In this document: piece after piece, positions 1,483 to 11,755 of the stretch
Layout of the letters: every line of letters starts with the position of its first letter
Numbering within the stretch: position 1 is the first letter of the stretch
Source of the DNA: Candidatus Alcyoniella australis
GTDB taxonomy: Bacteria > Lernaellota > Lernaellaia > JAVCCG01 > Alcyoniellaceae
Assembly (NCBI GenBank): GCA_030765605.1
Contig: JAVCCG010000041.1
Coordinates: 1-33,343, forward strand
Reading direction: 5' to 3'
DNA: 33,343 bases
Program-made: the position numbers and the translations under genes
The notes under the pieces: generated by a model
What the model was told of the DNA's origin: nothing
Seen by the model: only the letters and a program-made list of their open reading frames with translations
The model's database searches: none

Positions 1483-1716
1483 GGCTCCATTGAAGCCATG
1501 ATAGGATACCGCGAGCAACGCAAGCATATAACTGGTCTCCACGGTCTCCGGACCGTGGCTCCATTGAAGCATACACTGGACTAACCTGGAGCGGGTAGCA
1601 TGCGAGGTGTCTCCACGGTCTCCGGACCGTGGCTCCATTGAAGCTGCTCTACTTTGATAATTTTACCGGCGAACACACCGGTCTCCGCGGTCTCCGGACC
1701 GCGGCTCCATTGAAGC
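1483..1716 (+). CRISPR. Orphan CRISPR array remnant, 3 full repeats plus 1 partial
   Basis: Three 36-nt repeats lie at 1535-1570, 1609-1644 and 1681-1716. A 14-nt repeat 3' end, GGCTCCATTGAAGC, lies at 1483-1496. Each repeat opens GTCTCC and closes with ATTGAAGC, a 3' end typical of many CRISPR families. The core is an 8-bp stem (CCACGGTC/GACCGTGG) around TCCG. In the third full repeat the stem changes on both sides (CCGCGG/CCGCGG) and keeps pairing. Spacers are unique: 1497-1534 (38 nt), 1571-1608 (38 nt), 1645-1680 (36 nt), then a cut spacer at 1717-1740. No cas gene lies in the window. Both array ends abut IS ends, so this is an interrupted fragment. Confidence 0.75.
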
Positions 1717-1740
1717 ACGCGGATCGGGTGGTAAATGTCC

Positions 1741-2126
1741 TGTGGCTCGCCAAAACCAGATCACGGGTGATTTCGACCTTTGGTTCGGGTCATCGCTAAT
1801 CCGTAGTAGCGGGTCTCCATCGGCAGCAGTCTCAGCCCGTGCAATGGTTCAAGTAAAAGTCCGACAGCTGGACAAACCACGGCCTGATCGACGTATCCCG
1901 CTGGCGACCTGAAATCAGCGAGCCCTGCGCCACGTCGCGCCACTCGTAGCGATGGTGCAGGCCGCCGACTCTCGGCAGGGCTATAACGGAACCAATATCC
2001 CAGGAAGCCGAGCAGCAAACGAACCGTTTTCAGCGGATTTTGAGCCTTCATGTCGACAAGGTAGCCCGATTCAGCCATGCTCGCAACATGCTGATTTCAT
2101 TGCCGGATGAGTTTTGGCGAGGGACA
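1741..2126. mobile_element. 386-bp IS deletion derivative with inverted ends
   Basis: The left end reads TGTGGCTCGCCAAAAC (1741-1756). The right end is its near inverse, GTTTTGGCGAGGGACA (2111-2126), with two mismatches over 16 bases. Between them, on the minus strand at about 1935-1985, is the same integrase tail (ALPRVGGLHHRYEWRDV) seen in copies A, B and D. The element therefore keeps both termini but only a trace of its transposase, as in a MITE-like non-autonomous derivative. No clear target-site duplication is seen. The left end cuts into a CRISPR spacer. Confidence 0.6.
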
Positions 2127-2340: not shown

Positions 2341-5300
2341 ATGAAAGAACAGACGCCGGTAAAAGGTTCAGGGCCGCGAGAAAAAAAGCCGCGTAATGTA
2401 CGTGTCTTCGTCTCCTCCACCTTCCAGGATATGCAGCAAGAGCGCGACGAGTTGATCAAGAACATCTTCCCTCAACTGCGCAAGATGTGCGCCGAACGCG
2501 GGGTGGGATTCACCGAGGTCGATTTGCGTTGGGGCGTGACGCAAGAGCAGTCCGAGCGCGGCGAGGTGTTACCCATCTGTTTGGCTGAGATCGAGCACTG
2601 CCGCCCGTATTTCATCGGCCTGTTGGGCGAACGCTACGGTTGGGTGCCCGATTCCATTCCCCCGGAGTTGATCAGGGAAATGCCCTGGCTCGCCGAACAC
2701 CTGGAAAAAAGCGTCACCGAACTGGAAATATTGCACGGCGTGTTGAACAACCCAGCAATGGCGGATCACGCCTTTTTCTACTTCCGAGATCCGGCCAGCC
2801 CACTGACTGTTCCATCGGACAACGAGACATCGGCGGAAAAGCTCAAGAAGCTAAAAACAAGGATTAAGGCCGAAGGTTTCCCGGTCAAAGAGAACTACTC
2901 CGACCCGGAAACTGCGGGGCAATTGGCCTTTAAAGACCTCATGGATGCCATTGATCGGGATTACCCCGACCAGAAGTTGACGCCATTGGACCGTATGCGG
3001 TTGGACCACGAGATGTTTGCTGAAAGCCGGGCTAGGGTCTATGTCGGGCGGAAGGAATACTTCGACACCCTGGACAAGCATATGCGGGAAGACGGCGCGC
3101 CGCTCGTGATCCTGGGCGAATCCGGATCGGGGAAATCCGCCCTGCTGGCCAATTGGGCGATCAAGTTTCAGAAGGAAAACCCGAAAGTGTTTTTCTTGGT
3201 GCACTTTATTGGTAGCAACGCCGACAGCGCCAATTGGGCGGTGATGCTTCGCAGGATCATGGGGGAGATCAAGCAGCGGGACACTATGACCGATGAGTTG
3301 CCGGACACTCCCGAAAAGCTGCGCGCCGAATTCCCCAACTGGCTCTCCATGGCCGCGGCTCGCGGGCGCTTGGTTCTGGTGCTCGATGGACTAAACCAGC
3401 TTGAAGACCGCGACCAGGCACCCGACCTAGTTTGGCTGCCGGAGTTCGTTCCGCCCGAGGTTCAGCTGATCATGTCCACCCTTCCAGGGCGTCCATTGGA
3501 TGAATTGAAAAGGCGCGGCTGGCCGACAATGGAAATCTTGCCGCTGGCGTACGAGGAAAGACGCGAGCTGATTCAAAAATATCTCCACCTGTTCACCAAG
3601 TCGCTTCCCGACGATCAAGTTGATTCGATCGCGTCGACTCCGCAATCGGCCAATCCGCTTTTCGTCCGTGCCCTACTCGATGAACTACGTGTGTTTGGCA
3701 TTCAAAAGGAAATCCCGCGCCGCATTGAGCAGTATCTTCAGGCGCGAAATCCGAAAGAGCTGTACGAGTTAGTCCTGGCCCGGCTCGAAGACGACTACGG
3801 ACCAGCGTTGGTGCGCGACGCCATGTCTCTGTTGTGGGCGGCGAGGCGGGGGCTGTCGGAATCCGAACTCCTCGACATCCTGAACATACCGCCATTGGCC
3901 TGGTCGCCCCCTCACCTGGCTATGGACGAATCTCTCGTGCTTCGTTCCGGGCTCATCGGCTTTTTTCACGAGTTTCTGCGGCAGGCCGTGCATGATCGAT
4001 ATCTGAACATGCCGGATGCCGAGAAAGCCGCGCACGTGCAAATCGCAGACTACTTCACCATGCGCGATATCAACGACCGCAAAGTGGATGAACTGCCGTG
4101 GCAGCTTGCTGAAGCCCGTGAATGGAAACGACTAAAGAGCTGTTTTGAGGATCTGCCTTTTTTTGCGGCCGCGTACATAAAGAACCAATTCGAATTACGT
4201 GCTTATTGGCAAAAGATTGAGGAGAATTCAACGGTTACTTGTGTGAAAGTGTATGAGAAAATTCTCGACAATCCTTCTGAATATATTGAGTTTCTTTTTG
4301 TACTTTCAGACCTGTTTTATTCAAAGGGGTACATTGATGAAGCATTGAAACTTAGAAATACCCAAAGAAAATACTATCGCTCTATCCATGATTATGCCAA
4401 CCTGCAAAGGATTCTTCATAATCAGGCATCAATTTTATTCGACAGAGGCGAGTATGATAGTGCTATGGTTCTTCATAAGGAACAGGAACAAATATGCCGA
4501 AAATTGGGAGACAGGAAAGGCCTTTCTGTCTCGCTAGGTGCTATGGCCTTGATACTTAGAAATCTGGGTGATCTAAATGGCTCGATTATTTTGCTAAAGG
4601 AACAGGAAACAATATGTCGAAAAATGCAAAATGAAGATGGCTTATCTTCATCGCTTGGCAATCAAGCAGTTAATTTTAAAGATTTGGGCGAATTGATAAA
4701 GGCGATGGACTTGCTAAAGGAACAAGAAGGGATTTGCAGACGAATTGGTGATCGAGTTGGCTTGTCTGCCTCTCTGGGAAACCAAGGAACAATTCTTAAA
4801 AATATCGGCGATCTCGAAGGAGCAATGATTCTCCACAAGGAGCAAGAAAAAATATGCCGACAATTAGGAGATATGCATATGCTATCTATTTCCTTGGGTA
4901 ACCAAGCATTGCTTTTAAAAGCACGCGGCGATCTCGATGGTGCAATGGCTTTGCACAAGAAGGAAGAGAAAATATACCGGAAAATGGACAACAAGCATGG
5001 TTTATCATTATCTATGGGCAATCAGGCTCTAATTCTTTATTCACGAAGCGATCTCGATGGTGCCATGGCTTTGCACAAGGAGGAGGAGCGAATATGTCGT
5101 GAGCATGGAATCAAGGATGGACTGCAAAGATCCTTCGGCCATCAAGCCAACATATTGGCCGACAAAGGCGACCTTAAGACCGCAATGGCTCTTTATAAGG
5201 AGAAAGAACAAATCTGTCGCCAACTGGGATTAAAAAATAGTTTACAATCGTCTCTTGGTAACCAGGCGTTGATTCTTAAGGAGCTCGGTGATCTGGATGG

Positions 5301-5658
5301 CGCAATGGTCTTGCTAAAAGACCAGGAAAGGATATGTCGTGAATTGATGAATAAGTACGGATTGTCCAATTCCCTCGGTAATCAGGCTGGCATTCTTTCC
5401 CAGCGAGGCGAATTGCAAGATGCAATCGCAGTGTACGAGAAACAAGAACGTATTTGCCGGGAAATTGGGCGGCCCATGGAAATCGCTATTTCCTTATATA
5501 ATCAAGCAGCGATTCTGGCGGGAGATATGAAGAAGTACAAGGAGGCTCTTCCACTTATAACTGAAGCTCTAAGTATATTTAGTCGCCTCCAAAGCCCCTA
5601 TGTAAAGTCTGCCAGAGAGGTACTAGATTATATTAGATGCACACTCGAAGTAAAGTGA
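2341..5658 (+). CDS. DUF4062-STAND NTPase-TPR protein (NLR-like)
   Basis: This 1105-residue protein has the plan of a STAND signalling ATPase. Residues 20-105 match DUF4062 (RVFVSSTFQDMQQERD, DLRWGVT, GLLGERYGW), a TIR-like domain also found in eukaryotic TEP1, NPHP3 and NWD1. The P-loop GESGSGKS lies at 259-266 and Walker B (LVLVLDG) at 344-350. A winged-helix-like part follows (around 470-560). From about residue 690 there are nine or more TPR units of exactly 40 residues, each with a conserved EQExICR core and a GNQAxIL helix. Family knowledge suggests ligand sensing by the TPRs, NTP-driven oligomerisation and an N-terminal effector, as in antiviral STAND (Avs) proteins. A role in defence is inference. 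The 5' half is GC-rich and the TPR half clearly AT-richer. The ATG at 2341 has only a weak purine-rich ribosome site. Confidence 0.85.
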   Translation: MKEQTPVKGSGPREKKPRNVRVFVSSTFQDMQQERDELIKNIFPQLRKMCAERGVGFTEVDLRWGVTQEQSERGEVLPICLAEIEHCRPYFIGLLGERYGWVPDSIPPELIREMPWLAEHLEKSVTELEILHGVLNNPAMADHAFFYFRDPASPLTVPSDNETSAEKLKKLKTRIKAEGFPVKENYSDPETAGQLAFKDLMDAIDRDYPDQKLTPLDRMRLDHEMFAESRARVYVGRKEYFDTLDKHMREDGAPLVILGESGSGKSALLANWAIKFQKENPKVFFLVHFIGSNADSANWAVMLRRIMGEIKQRDTMTDELPDTPEKLRAEFPNWLSMAAARGRLVLVLDGLNQLEDRDQAPDLVWLPEFVPPEVQLIMSTLPGRPLDELKRRGWPTMEILPLAYEERRELIQKYLHLFTKSLPDDQVDSIASTPQSANPLFVRALLDELRVFGIQKEIPRRIEQYLQARNPKELYELVLARLEDDYGPALVRDAMSLLWAARRGLSESELLDILNIPPLAWSPPHLAMDESLVLRSGLIGFFHEFLRQAVHDRYLNMPDAEKAAHVQIADYFTMRDINDRKVDELPWQLAEAREWKRLKSCFEDLPFFAAAYIKNQFELRAYWQKIEENSTVTCVKVYEKILDNPSEYIEFLFVLSDLFYSKGYIDEALKLRNTQRKYYRSIHDYANLQRILHNQASILFDRGEYDSAMVLHKEQEQICRKLGDRKGLSVSLGAMALILRNLGDLNGSIILLKEQETICRKMQNEDGLSSSLGNQAVNFKDLGELIKAMDLLKEQEGICRRIGDRVGLSASLGNQGTILKNIGDLEGAMILHKEQEKICRQLGDMHMLSISLGNQALLLKARGDLDGAMALHKKEEKIYRKMDNKHGLSLSMGNQALILYSRSDLDGAMALHKEEERICREHGIKDGLQRSFGHQANILADKGDLKTAMALYKEKEQICRQLGLKNSLQSSLGNQALILKELGDLDGAMVLLKDQERICRELMNKYGLSNSLGNQAGILSQRGELQDAIAVYEKQERICREIGRPMEIAISLYNQAAILAGDMKKYKEALPLITEALSIFSRLQSPYVKSAREVLDYIRCTLEVK
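4450..5500 (+). repeat. 120-bp tandem repeats encoding TPRs
   Basis: Within the STAND gene, a 120-bp unit recurs in frame at least nine times. It is recognisable by repeated GGCGATCT-like segments followed by GGN-GCAATG and then AAGGA-CAGGA. Several neighbouring units are close enough for recombination to add or remove repeats. The encoded unit is a 40-residue helix pair with an invariant I-C/Y-R motif. Confidence 0.8.
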
Positions 5659-5705: not shown

Positions 5706-6503
5706 TCATATTAATTTTGTCTTTGTTTTTCGCAGGTGGGATGCTGCTGCGTAAGTTGTCTCTCCTCCACATTGAGGACAAGGCCTCCCAGACAGTCTCA
5801 TCCCTGTGTCAAAACGCGACACGCCAGTACATCCTCCACATACCACAATATTGCACTTTTCGCAGTATCTTGATGCTATGATCGCAACATCTGGTGTAAA
5901 CACCATAACTGTGCCTTCGCCAAGAGGTCTACCCAACGCTTTGCATTCTCTCCCGCATTGTTCGCAAATTATTTCCACAGGACTGTTGTTGCGGTCCGCG
6001 CTGTCAAGCTTTTGCATTTCATTAGCTGACCGCTTAAATTTACCTATTTTAGCAGATATTCTTGCCTTCTGTTTGTATGTAACTTCGACAACGGCTTGCT
6101 GAAATATGTCAGCCTCATATTGGTTTGGCTTCTTCCCAAATCCTAAAAACCCTTTCTTGCCTGAGGCCACTAGTCGGATGGCTTTGAGTATCGCGGTATT
6201 ACTAATTTGCTTCTCCACCTGTGTTTTAGCATTTTGCTCATCGAACGCTTTGATAATAATAGAAGTTGGTCCTGGAGCCGTAATTTCCTTCTTTGTTATG
6301 GCGTTCGCGTCGCCAGGGATTTGACTTTGCACTTTCGCAAAGGCTGCTTCCGTTGTTTCTGAATCAGCTTTTATTGTCTTGGGGTTTCCATCTGAGAGCA
6401 CTTTTTCCGAGAGGAGGTGAAGACCCTCGGGTATCTGAGCTCTAATTTGTTGCCTGGCCTCCTCTAAGGAATTGGCCTCAACATCAATTGTTTTTTCAGA
6501 CAT
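5706..6503 (-). CDS. Triplicated-repeat protein with C-terminal zinc ribbons
   Basis: This 265-residue protein is not in a family I can name. Residues 5-42, 43-80 and 81-142 are three diverged copies of one unit: TIxxxAxSxEEA, then a helix to QIP, then KEI...GP. The third runs into GKKGFLGFGKKPNQYEAD, which resembles the conserved loop of the Jag/KhpB N-terminal domain. The C-terminal part carries CEQC (180-183), CEKC (214-217), CGGC (222-225) and CPQC (242-245), clearly zinc-binding ribbons. Residues 5-150 align along their whole length with residues 130-275 of the next gene upstream (6574-7827), so the two are paralogues. The ATG at 6503 follows AAAGGGG by seven bases. The gene is AT-richer than its neighbours, suggesting separate acquisition. 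Confidence 0.7.
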   Translation of the reverse strand: MSEKTIDVEANSLEEARQQIRAQIPEGLHLLSEKVLSDGNPKTIKADSETTEAAFAKVQSQIPGDANAITKKEITAPGPTSIIIKAFDEQNAKTQVEKQISNTAILKAIRLVASGKKGFLGFGKKPNQYEADIFQQAVVEVTYKQKARISAKIGKFKRSANEMQKLDSADRNNSPVEIICEQCGRECKALGRPLGEGTVMVFTPDVAIIASRYCEKCNIVVCGGCTGVSRFDTGMRLSGRPCPQCGGETTYAAASHLRKTKTKLI

Positions 6504-6573
6504 TGTTTAACCCCTTTCGTGGAGTCCTTCAGGTCTCTGCCGAATAGTCGCGAAACAAAACCCATCATGTCAT

Positions 6574-7827
6574 TCAGGTGCCTCGATAGACGACGACTAC
6601 GAAGAAAGGACTCCCGGTCTTGTCGTTCGACTCCATAGCCCGGACCTTGTAGTCGTGGCTCTTGACGGGCTCAGGCGGGAAGGCTCCGCCAGTCCTCCCG
6701 TGACAGGCTTCGATTCCCGCTTGAACCACCTCGTCCAGCACACCGGAAGCGCCGCGGGCCGCGGCCCGGTAGAGGGATCGCGTCCGGCCATGCTCGCATG
6801 GGTGCAGGGGGCCCTGCTTGAGGACCCTGCTAATCCAGGTACCAGCCGTGTCCTCGATGGTTCCGACGGCCACCTTTGACGCGGCTACGGCAACTGCCTC
6901 CCCTTCCGGTGCCAGGACGATCGCACCGAGAAGCTCGCTGAGCGGTTTCCCTGAGGCATATCTCGGGTTGCGAAGTTCGTATGGTCTGTCATCAACGGCG
7001 AGGCGCACTTCCAAGGGTGGGCGATAGGCGACCTCCACGACGGCCTGTCGGCGCACCGACACCTCGTATTCGCCAGGCCGCCTGCCAATACCGATGAAGC
7101 CTCTTCGACCGGGCTTCGTCAACGCCACCTCGCGGACCTCGTCGTCCTCTTCTATCCGGGCCTCGGCTTCGGACCTCGCATCGTTCTCGTCGAGCGCCTC
7201 CACCTCGAGCGTTGTCGCGCCAGGCTCACGCAAGACCTTCCGCTCAGCTACCTCCGCATTGTCGGGCAGCTCTGCCTCAGCATTGGCAAATGCCGAGTCG
7301 GTGTCCAATCCGACGCCCTTGATGGTCGCGGCAAGACCGAGGTTGATCCAGTCCTGAGAGGTGATGTCCAAACCCGCGGGCAGTTGCTCAAGGGCCTGCG
7401 ACCACGCGTCTTCCAGGGAATGAGCCACGATGAGGAAGCTGCGCTCTTGGGCTCCCGACGAAGCCTGCTTGGGGCTGCCGGCAGCCGACTGCCCAATGCT
7501 CGAACGGAGGACGACGTTCTCGAGCTGGTCAATCGAGTTCTTGATTTCCTCCGGAGGCGCATCACTCTCGTGCTGCCGAGACTCCGACGCCTTTCCCTTC
7601 ACCGTTGCGAACTCTGTGTCGACCGCCGCACAGACTGCCTCGACGTCGAAATCAGTTCTCCGCCTGTTAGGCACTACGAAGTAGACAAGGCTAATCCCGC
7701 CCAGTCGCTTGCCCTGAAATGTCCTCTCGCACCAGACAACATCCGAGTACTCTGGACAGATCGACCTCAACACCTCCCAGCCATCGTCCTCGCTCCCCTT
7801 GTACGGATCCGTGGTGACGAGGTACAC
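6574..7827 (-). CDS. Paralogous triplicated-repeat protein (417 aa)
   Basis: Residues 130-167, 168-205 and 206-267 repeat the three-unit module of the 5706-6503 protein. The second units pair well (TIKGVGLDTDSAFANAEAEL against TIKADSETTEAAFAKVQSQI), and the third ends GRRGFIGIGRRPGEYEV. In place of zinc ribbons it has its own N-terminal domain (1-75, YLVTTDPYKGSEDDGWEVL) and a C-terminal domain (280-417). Neither is recognised. The start is GTG at 7827 behind AAAGAAGAAG. No other usual start lies between it and an in-frame stop, although the codons just upstream read CACESCSGFDPKKK and look coding. It is GC-rich and 70 bases upstream of its paralogue. The function is unknown; the loop hints at RNA or nucleic-acid-related roles only by analogy. 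Confidence 0.7.
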   Translation of the reverse strand: MYLVTTDPYKGSEDDGWEVLRSICPEYSDVVWCERTFQGKRLGGISLVYFVVPNRRRTDFDVEAVCAAVDTEFATVKGKASESRQHESDAPPEEIKNSIDQLENVVLRSSIGQSAAGSPKQASSGAQERSFLIVAHSLEDAWSQALEQLPAGLDITSQDWINLGLAATIKGVGLDTDSAFANAEAELPDNAEVAERKVLREPGATTLEVEALDENDARSEAEARIEEDDEVREVALTKPGRRGFIGIGRRPGEYEVSVRRQAVVEVAYRPPLEVRLAVDDRPYELRNPRYASGKPLSELLGAIVLAPEGEAVAVAASKVAVGTIEDTAGTWISRVLKQGPLHPCEHGRTRSLYRAAARGASGVLDEVVQAGIEACHGRTGGAFPPEPVKSHDYKVRAMESNDKTGSPFFVVVVYRGT

Positions 7828-7876: not shown

Positions 7877-8116
7877 TTACTTGGCGACTTGCCAGTCCCT
7901 GTACTGCTCGGGACCGTAGTCGGCCAGACGATATTCCTGGCGGAACATCACATCATTGCACCATATCTCATCGGCAGCGAGATCTGCTTGGACTTCGAAG
8001 AGACCGCCGGGCTTGCCGTAGTCCTTCAACTTTGAATCGAACCAGCGATCCCGAAACGCGTTGTGGATACGCGTTGCCGAAGTATGTCCGTCCTTCCGTA
8101 GGGCTTCCCAGTTCAT
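7877..8116 (-). CDS. Hypothetical protein (79 aa)
   Basis: The frame encodes MNWEALRKDGHTSATRIH through to YGPEQYRDWQVAK. It is soluble, tryptophan-rich for its size, and not in a family I recognise. Its ATG overlaps the stop codon of the preceding frame as ATGA (8113-8116), the usual sign of translational coupling. The downstream gene starts 49 bases after its stop. GC-rich codons and the overlap favour a real gene in the cluster. The alternative is that it is one segment of a frameshifted longer gene, since sensible-looking codons (CACESC) continue in another frame after its stop. Confidence 0.5.
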   Translation of the reverse strand: MNWEALRKDGHTSATRIHNAFRDRWFDSKLKDYGKPGGLFEVQADLAADEIWCNDVMFRQEYRLADYGPEQYRDWQVAK

Positions 8117-8553
8117 CTGAACTCCCCCATGGCCAACAGGGCGTCTGGGATTACCTGCAGGTTGCCATCGACCTGGACCGGCTCTTCACGCTTCAGCCCC
8201 TTCATACTCGATAGACCAAACGGGCGGTGAGCATGGCTTCCTGCGACGAGTGGCCACGCTGGCTCCCGGTACGGCATCTGAGCGGCAGTCGCGGCGGCAC
8301 TGGGACACCAGCGGGCGGAAGCGGGCCCTGGCGGATGGACGAGATGATGGTCAAGACCAGGAAACGACTGCGTCCAGGAGACGATTGTGGCAGGATGCAT
8401 CTCGCCGGATGCTGCGGCTGGCACCGCAGTCCGCGCAAGGTGCGTGCGGTCCTGATCGCCGCCGCTTGAGGGGAACGAGTTGGCCGCTGCCGCATCCGGA
8501 CAGCCGTTCTTGGCAATGAACCTGTCGAAGATACGCATCGCCACCCGCTCCAC
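8113..8553 (-). CDS. Hypothetical protein, possibly frameshifted (146 aa)
   Basis: A GTG at 8553, just after the stop of the zinc-ribbon gene, opens a frame beginning MERVAMRIFDRFIAKNGCP and ending VQVDGNLQVIPDALLAMGEFR. The two ends look like natural protein. The middle (about residues 35-105) is rich in Pro, His, Ala and Ser, resembles out-of-frame translation, and matches no family I know. Either it is an unusual small protein, or a frameshift splits an older gene, or only the last 30 codons (from MKGLKREEPVQ) are real. Its stop overlaps the next start as ATGA. Confidence in the full frame is low. Confidence 0.4.
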   Translation of the reverse strand: MERVAMRIFDRFIAKNGCPDAAAANSFPSSGGDQDRTHLARTAVPAAASGEMHPATIVSWTQSFPGLDHHLVHPPGPASARWCPSAAATAAQMPYREPAWPLVAGSHAHRPFGLSSMKGLKREEPVQVDGNLQVIPDALLAMGEFR

Positions 8554-8556
8554 GTC

Positions 8557-9165
8557 CTATTCATCGCGGTCAAAGACCCTGCAGGCGTCCTGGCGGAATC
8601 GCTCGAACGCTGCAAGAAGCTCCGAGGGGTCGGCCGGACACTTCGACTCCATGCGGGCGGGCAGCTCCGAGAGCCAAGCCCCCAGGCGCCGGTCGAGGCG
8701 CTCCAAGATGTCACGACGCTCCTCATCTGTGAGTTCAGCCGTCCCGCTTCGACCGACAAGCGAGGCGAACTCCAGCCACGCGAGCCACGGGTCAAGGAAG
8801 GCCCAGCGGATGTGCTCCGCCACCTCACGATCCTCAGCAGCAATCCGAGCGACTGCCGGGGACCACTCGTAGTAGCGACTCCAAAAGACGTGAAAGAAGT
8901 CTCGAGCCACTGGGTCGCGAGAGATCGCCGAGTCCCGGACTTGCCGAAGGCCCGCAACGAGGGGCGAGTCCGGCCCGCGGCACGCACTCGCAACAATGCA
9001 GGCGCCCGACGGCGGCTCACGCTCCTTCGATGGACCAGCCTGGCCGTACAGCTGGTCATGGACGCCGAATGCCCGAGCGAAGTCCTCTGCACCCTCCTCT
9101 TCGCCGCATTTCGGGCACTTGTCGCCATAGACTTGCTGTCCGCATGTGCCGCACTTCCAAGCCAT
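8557..9165 (-). CDS. Zinc-ribbon protein with CFI-box-like domain
   Basis: This protein of 202 residues begins MAWKCGTCGQQVYGDKCPKC, a zinc ribbon with Cys 5, 8, 17 and 20. Residues 55-131 (ACIVASACRGPDSPLV, then FWSRYYEWSPAVARI and LDPWLAW) fit the CFI-box domain, whose family pattern is CFIATAAYG, an RDxxL helix, a YYxxSPxxA segment and a hydrophobic end. That domain is usually C-terminal, but here about 70 further charged residues follow. The ATG at 9165 is preferred over the upstream GTG at 9177, because that GTG overlaps the AGGAGG that serves as ribosome site. It lies 15 bases downstream of the HTH gene, in the same direction. The role is unknown; zinc binding is inferred from the cysteines. 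Confidence 0.7.
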   Translation of the reverse strand: MAWKCGTCGQQVYGDKCPKCGEEEGAEDFARAFGVHDQLYGQAGPSKEREPPSGACIVASACRGPDSPLVAGLRQVRDSAISRDPVARDFFHVFWSRYYEWSPAVARIAAEDREVAEHIRWAFLDPWLAWLEFASLVGRSGTAELTDEERRDILERLDRRLGAWLSELPARMESKCPADPSELLAAFERFRQDACRVFDRDE

Positions 9166-9180
9166 GATGACCGTCACCTC

Positions 9181-9426
9181 CTACTGGGTTTTCCGAACAC
9201 CCGCGCCGTGCTCGCCCCCAGGTGGGCTGTCGTTCTCGGTTGTCGACGCAGCGGCACCTCCCGCGCGGATCCACTCATCGACCTCGTCCTTCTTGAACTT
9301 CCAGAAGCGCCCGACCCGGTGGCCGGGCATCCCCTTTGCGGTGAGCCAGGCGTATACGGTGTCCTTGCTCACGCCGAAGTGCTCGGCGATTTCATCTACC
9401 GAAAACCAGCGATCATCTGCGGGCAC
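9181..9426 (-). CDS. HTH DNA-binding protein, excisionase/MerR-like
   Basis: This 81-residue protein has one helix-turn-helix domain at residues 6-55: WFSVDEIAEHFGVSKDTVYA, then GMPGHRVGRFWKFKKDEVDEW. This is the standard excisionase-family winged helix fold, where VGRFWKF forms the wing. A disordered Gly/Ser/Pro-rich tail follows. Such proteins act as excisionases or as small transcription regulators; its position as first gene of a cluster favours a regulator. The start is GTG at 9426, preceded by AAGGAG at good spacing. A strong promoter and an inverted repeat sit directly upstream, so autoregulation is plausible but not shown. Confidence 0.75.
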   Translation of the reverse strand: MPADDRWFSVDEIAEHFGVSKDTVYAWLTAKGMPGHRVGRFWKFKKDEVDEWIRAGGAAASTTENDSPPGGEHGAGVRKTQ

Positions 9427-10913: not shown

Positions 10914-10987
10914 GCCGAAAAGCATTTCAAGACAATCTCGAAAAAGCAAGTGAAATCAACATGGACGAAATTTTCGGAACCCACGAC

Positions 10988-11233
10988 CATCGCTACGAGT
11001 GGCGCGACGCAGCGTAGGGTTCGGCGACCTCCGACAATCAGCGGGAATCGTTCATTGATGCGGCGGTGTGTGCGGACAACGGGTTTTCCACACGACTATG
11101 CACCAGGGGCGACCCTGCCATCCATCGGGATCAATCTCTTTCGGGCCGTTTCAATTGAAAAAGAACGAAACGCGGGTTCGATTGCGTTGATTCAACGGCT
11201 CGATGATGGCTGATCTGTTTTTGGCGAGCGACA
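10988..11233 (+). mobile_element. IS remnant D (integrase end plus right terminus)
   Basis: Codons HRYEWRDAA and a stop (10988-11017) are followed by a tail whose last 184 bases (11050-11233) match 1299-1482 with three mismatches. It ends TTTTTGGCGAGCGACA. The rest of the element is missing: the start of the divergently oriented transposase at 10913 lies immediately to the left. Confidence 0.7.
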
Positions 11234-11510: not shown

Positions 11511-11587
<77 letters not shown>

Positions 11588-11679
11588 GCATATCTGCGGT
11601 GCCAAAAGAGGCTGCCAATTATAGGGGCTTTGCATCGGCTGTCAAGCGTATTAGACAACCCCTACAACCGGGTGCGAAC

Positions 11680-11755
11680 TGGTGGGCGGAACAGGGCTCG
11701 AACCTGCGACCCACGGCGTGTAAGGCCGTTGCTCTGCCAACTGAGCTATCCGCCC
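11680..11755 (-). tRNA. tRNA-Val (UAC)
   Basis: A 76-nt cloverleaf on the minus strand. The acceptor GGGCGGA pairs with TCCGCCC, with discriminator A and encoded CCA. The D arm is GCTCAGTTGGCAGAGC. The anticodon stem ACGGC/GCCGT holds CTTACAC with anticodon TAC. The T arm is GCAGG-TTCGAGC-CCTGT. Confidence 0.95.

Follow-up and report, generated by a model that had tools for sequence, protein, structure and literature searches.

Two neighbouring genes, A (5706..6503) and B (6574..7827), which lie on the minus strand of the 33,343-nt stretch of DNA analysed here (the window), encode a shared module of about 150 residues that is undescribed and consists, judged by profile comparison and predicted fold, of three tandem units of the Jag_N type. 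The units, each of beta-alpha-beta order, follow one another along the chain, and the last of them ends in a GFLGxGKKP-type loop. Jag_N is a common bacterial domain that normally occurs once per protein; what is new here is a rare three-unit variant of a known domain, not a new kind of system. The members found so far comprise A, B, three complete modules elsewhere (L045, L053 and L071) and one relic (L075). We suggest, with evenly balanced confidence, that they represent a rare and horizontally moving family in which a Jag_N-type docking module is joined to variable binding ends, so that the proteins would, by analogy, act as adaptors.

The modules of A and B align without gaps over residues 3–144 of A and 128–269 of B, with 48 of 142 positions identical (34%, E=1e-29), and a search of the whole source genome reveals only these two copies. 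Within A, an open reading frame of 265 aa, unit 1 spans residues 3–40 (6384..6497, minus strand as for all features of A and B), with a predicted strand at 4–10, a helix at 13–23 and a second strand at 30–37, and unit 2 spans residues 41–79 (6267..6383), with the corresponding elements at 41–48, 51–61 and 66–75. Unit 3 (residues 80–135, 6099..6266) is longer than units 1 and 2 and carries the loop GKKGFLGFGKKP (residues 115–126, 6126..6161), followed by a further strand. In B, an open reading frame of 417 aa, the A-B alignment, the Jag_N profile and the structural model place unit 1 at residues 128–165 (7333..7446), unit 2 at residues 166–204 (7216..7332) and unit 3 at residues 205–260 (7048..7215), where the equivalent loop GRRGFIGIGRRP occupies residues 240–251 (7075-7110). 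The module also includes a conserved extension bearing the motif QQAVVEVxY (residues 127–154 of A, 6042..6125). Residues invariant in all five complete modules (A numbering) are A10, L13, A16, G27, A54, P63, A66 and A86, together with G115, G118, F119 and G121 of the loop and Y129, Q136, A137 and V139 of the extension.

The three units resemble one another as well as their counterparts in the other protein. Using the four-sequence family alignment, from which L045 was left out, the profile score is 28.1 for units 1 and 3 (maximum of 200 column shuffles, 15.9), 22.5 for units 1 and 2 (maximum 14.7) and 14.4 for units 2 and 3 (maximum 13.2), the last being the weakest pair with a narrow margin. 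AlphaFold2 modelling of the module from the five-sequence alignment (mean pLDDT 88.6, pTM 0.64) predicts exactly three beta-alpha-beta units, then the loop, plus three strands; from unit 3 onwards, the model of A places a strand at 78–86, a helix at 89–99 and a strand at 104–113 ahead of the loop, and strands at 127–135, 137–145 and 147–153 after it. The packing of the units is uncertain, given an alignment of only five sequences and a pTM of 0.64. In the model of full-length B, the module is seen again at residues 129–279, and confidence is low elsewhere. The first-pass annotation had proposed, from the letters of the sequence, that the two proteins share three consecutive units, the last ending in GFLGFGKKP or GFIGIGRRP; the gapless alignment, the scores above all shuffles and the repeated units in the model bear this out.

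No family describing the module was found in Pfam, NCBIfam, PADLOC or PHROGs, and no family competes with Jag_N (PF14804), which itself matches below its cut-off of 25 bits. The Pfam profile scores 16.2 bits on A (residues 112–126, E=0.015) and 23.2 bits on L045, and does not match B. With a comparison profile built from 29 Jag_N domains (50 columns), hhalign aligns unit 3 in register over all 50 columns with 94–95% probability, and the four-sequence family alignment gives in-register matches of 78% for unit 1 and 72% for unit 2; for each unit, none of 200 column shuffles scores as high. A stricter control, in which single sequences were set against 500 background windows taken from the contig's remaining proteins, gives a mixed picture. 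In several members, units 1 and 2 exceed all or nearly all of these windows, but unit 2 of A, unit 1 of L045 and both of these units of L071 do not rise above background, and unit 3 stripped of its loop scores at background level. The claim that all three units are of the Jag_N type therefore draws its support from the family-level profile together with the predicted fold. By sequence comparison, units 1 and 2 carry the strand-helix signature of Jag_N and unit 3 carries its loop. Among PDB sequences, the best match of the five-member profile is the Jag protein 3gku, aligned to unit 3 in register, albeit weakly (E=0.16).

A relationship of the module to Jag_N, whether by derivation or through a shared ancestor, is thus well supported by sequence profiles and the predicted fold, in agreement with the earlier proposal of an undescribed repeat related to the N-terminal domain of Jag/KhpB. 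In both sequence and model, unit 3 shares with Jag_N the beta-alpha-beta-beta order and a GFLGxGxKP loop ahead of the last strand. The module differs in having three units in tandem, with the loop in the third alone, and in the added AVVEVxY extension. Moreover, the KH-II and R3H domains of KhpB/EloR/Jag proteins have no match in A, B, L045, L053 or L071. Foldseek searches of the module model against the PDB and viral models return no significant whole-module match (3gku appears at rank 21, not significant on its own), and the three-unit arrangement is accordingly without a recognised solved counterpart. A separate Jag_N protein is encoded on another contig of the source genome.

Other known families are related more loosely. 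L010, L011, L035 and L039, which we take to be FapA/DUF342-type proteins with an N-terminal Jag_N, likewise place a Jag_N-type element at the N-terminus of a different C-terminus, and the module profile matches L010 and L011 through unit 3. However, such proteins contain a single Jag_N, and DUF342 has no match in A, B, L045, L053 or L071. Unit 1 weakly matches DpnD-PcfM (PF14207; E=0.083 for A and 0.013 for L053) over its first strand and its helix, but this family is a single short domain without a loop and its matches to the module lie below cut-off. Jag-like matches to a two-row profile (E 1e-5 to 3e-3) were set aside as single Jag_N domains rather than three-unit modules.

Outside the module, A and B are dissimilar, as the earlier annotation had stated of their accessory domains. 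The C-terminus of A (5754..5978) is a cysteine-rich, zinc-ribbon-like domain with four CxxC motifs in its sequence (CEQC, CEKC, CGGC and CPQC); it matches no family above cut-off in Pfam, NCBIfam or PADLOC, and 144 other genomes searched contain no homologue. A candidate match to this domain, L079, was dropped, being based on 13 residues. In B, the N-terminal region (residues 1–125, 7453..7827; pLDDT about 35–60) has no family match and the C-terminal region (residues 280–417, 6577..6990; pLDDT mostly <50) none above cut-off, and the AlphaFold confidence of both is too low for a structure search. Gene B starts with GTG; its open frame extends further upstream (CACESCSGFDPKKKT) and contains no other start codon there. 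Further upstream, the stretch at 7877-8560 (minus strand) holds only short open reading frames of 79 and 146 aa, which overlap by ATGA and are without solid matches; it may be a decayed gene. It is followed by a zinc-ribbon-like gene (8557-9177, minus strand; 206 aa) with an N-terminal zinc-ribbon-like CxxC pair, a weak zinc-ribbon match and a sub-threshold CFI-box score (29.6 against 40 bits).

Scanning genomes of 84,980 species with a degenerate DNA pattern for the loop and AVV motif detects two true relatives, L045 and L053. The L045 gene (3030-4277), from Candidatus Fermentibacteraceae, joins the module to ankyrin repeats (Ank_2, E=2e-42), and the L053 gene (2062-3165), from Dehalococcoidia, joins it to a weak HEAT-like region (HEAT_PBS, E=7e-4) and a cysteine-rich end. 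Of 26 genome-contig matches to a slightly relaxed form of a pattern that recovers A and B, all but L045 and L053 are ordinary Jag_N proteins or chance; the viral match L044 is due to chance. A search of viral contigs adds L071, whose gene (1169-2245) lies on a 26.9-kb IMG/VR tailed-phage contig next to genes that, judged from their translations, resemble those for terminase, portal and capsid proteins; the C-terminus of L071 has no family match. A profile search of one further phylum uncovers the L075 relic (1576-2106, minus strand), in which units 1 and 2 are retained and unit 3 begins but is cut short by a stop; its loop region is lost or unrecognisable. No further members emerge from profile runs against 386 scattered genomes, 400 of the L053 phylum, 42 of the L045 phylum, and 195 and 399 of two further phyla, from tblastn searches of plasmids (with A, B and L053) and phages (with A, L053 and L071), or from a further viral scan with units 1–2, and patterns from a two-row alignment, which were too narrow, find no relatives. 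The few members across these searches point to a rare family with a scattered distribution, the known members being a lower bound. The module is usually N-terminal, and the C-termini vary from cysteine-rich (A) through ankyrin (L045) and HEAT-like plus cysteine-rich (L053) to no recognised family (L071).

The distribution bears on the proposal of the first-pass annotation that A and B form a two-component assembly. If they were two halves of one complex, their modules would pair and thereby join the zinc ribbons of A to the end domains of B, and indeed the genes are co-directional and only 70 bases apart, the SD-like GAAAGGGG precedes A, and homologous modules could build a pseudo-symmetric dimer. 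It is their adjacency alone, however, that keeps this idea alive. Each of the three other genomes or records with a complete module contains a single copy; co-occurrence could be checked in these three alone, one of which is a viral fragment. A is closer to L053 (49% identity) than to B (31%), although this nearness rests on identity, since no branch of the five-member tree is supported. The two genes also differ in composition, with a GC of 0.449 and GC3 of 0.40 for A and a GC of 0.625 and GC3 of 0.73 for B (compared with a GC3 of 0.87–0.90 for lon/clpX on the same contig). Identity and composition together make A and B resemble separately acquired members rather than recent duplicates, and they look like separate acquisitions that now stand side by side. 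Most likely, they act as separate family members and not as obligate halves of one complex, which we regard as distinctly improbable.

A and B reside in an island that may be described as composite-transposon-like or tRNA-adjacent. Direct repeats of 247 nt (1236-1482 and 10987-11233, 94% identical) and 207 nt (114-320 and 1061-1267, 91% identical) are situated at the ends of IS-type transposases, and the ~9.75-kb segment between the IS remnants holds a NACHT gene, A, B and an HTH gene, with tRNA-Asp and tRNA-Val (11511-11755) adjoining the island. Three copies of a 41-nt repeat (GTCTCCACGGTCTCCGGACCGTGGCTCCATTGAAGC), which contains an internal palindrome, also occur at 1531-1717, spaced ~73 nt apart. 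Together with the unrelated lineages of the members, the AT-rich genes of A and L045 (GC 0.44 for L045 against 0.57 for its locus) and the member on a phage contig, the IS-flanked island fits horizontal movement of module genes among distant bacteria and phage, as read from sequence. For L053, the gap is smaller than for L045 (0.46 against 0.53), and the L071 and L075 genes are hardly AT-rich relative to their surroundings.

Such movement between distant bacteria and phage, as well as the IS-flanked setting, makes it plausible that the proteins act in conflicts involving mobile elements or phage. In a phage-conflict island, the module would recruit for defence or counter-defence proteins, next to two neighbours within the IS-bounded segment. 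The first (2341-5658, plus strand) encodes a 1105-aa DUF4062-NACHT-TPR protein, a predicted STAND-type sensor; the second (9181-9426, minus strand) lies upstream of B and encodes an HTH_17/excisionase-type protein that scores 82.1 bits with the NCBIfam antiphage_MADS1 (MAD1) equivalog model of the MADS defence system, for which the cut-off is 80 bits. HTH_17/excisionase-type domains are common, and this cut-off, passed by a lone HTH gene, may be too lax. The phage contig of L071 and the sporadic distribution of the family would also suit such a setting. Yet the NACHT gene is convergent with A and does not share its operon, PADLOC matches none of the module proteins, and no MADS gene other than the HTH candidate is seen in the window, no second component being found among the proteins tested near A and B. 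Around L045 and L053, no defence gene is recognised, and horizontal movement is consequently no proof of a conflict role. We therefore rate the phage-conflict island as doubtful. It concerns the setting and is compatible with docking; conflict could be the setting of docking or of RNA binding alike. The fuller proposal, that the triple module is a mobile phage- or island-borne recruitment domain of an undescribed adaptor family with interchangeable ends that serves in conflicts between bacteria and phage, we consider unlikely. No neighbouring gene is conserved between module loci, and thus the genome context gives no function for the module.

For the module itself, protein binding by Jag domains serves as the functional precedent. 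The Jag domain mediates protein-protein interactions (PMC11898072), having been termed a domain of unknown function in an older paper (PMC6403258), and in S. pneumoniae KhpB uses it to bind MpgA at its intracellular N-terminus, with confirmation reported by the authors in Lactococcus cremoris (PMC12542702). By analogy with this single Jag_N domain, one example studied in Firmicutes, through which KhpB/EloR grips the cell-wall enzyme MltG/MpgA by its cytoplasmic N-terminus, the module may be a cytoplasmic docking unit, the three units shaping a sheet-and-loop surface that would hold a constant partner, which is probably a domain or short peptide. The variable end of each protein would hold a second partner, and an adaptor, constant on one side and variable on the other, is the simplest reading.

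The main alternative is that A and B are nucleic-acid-binding regulators. In this view, RNA or DNA would be bound by the basic unit 3 loop and by A's zinc-ribbon-like end, and the module would descend from a Jag protein that binds RNA. Jag/KhpB proteins are, overall, RNA-binding (PMC6403258, PMC12542702), both loops are basic and the four CxxC motifs of A would be in keeping with such a function. However, the RNA-binding parts of KhpB are precisely the KH-II and R3H domains that the module proteins lack. Furthermore, the ankyrin and HEAT-like ends of other members are repeats that typically bind protein. We consider this combination of nucleic-acid binding and origin from an RNA-binding Jag protein to be unlikely, and favour the docking adaptor.

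What Jag_N does is only starting to emerge, from work on how KhpB docks onto an enzyme of the cell wall. The triple module turns up in distinct lineages as well as on a phage contig, which suggests that the Jag_N element has been reused as a building block beyond KhpB and FapA proteins, and the module offers a compact system for asking what the Jag_N loop and sheet bind.
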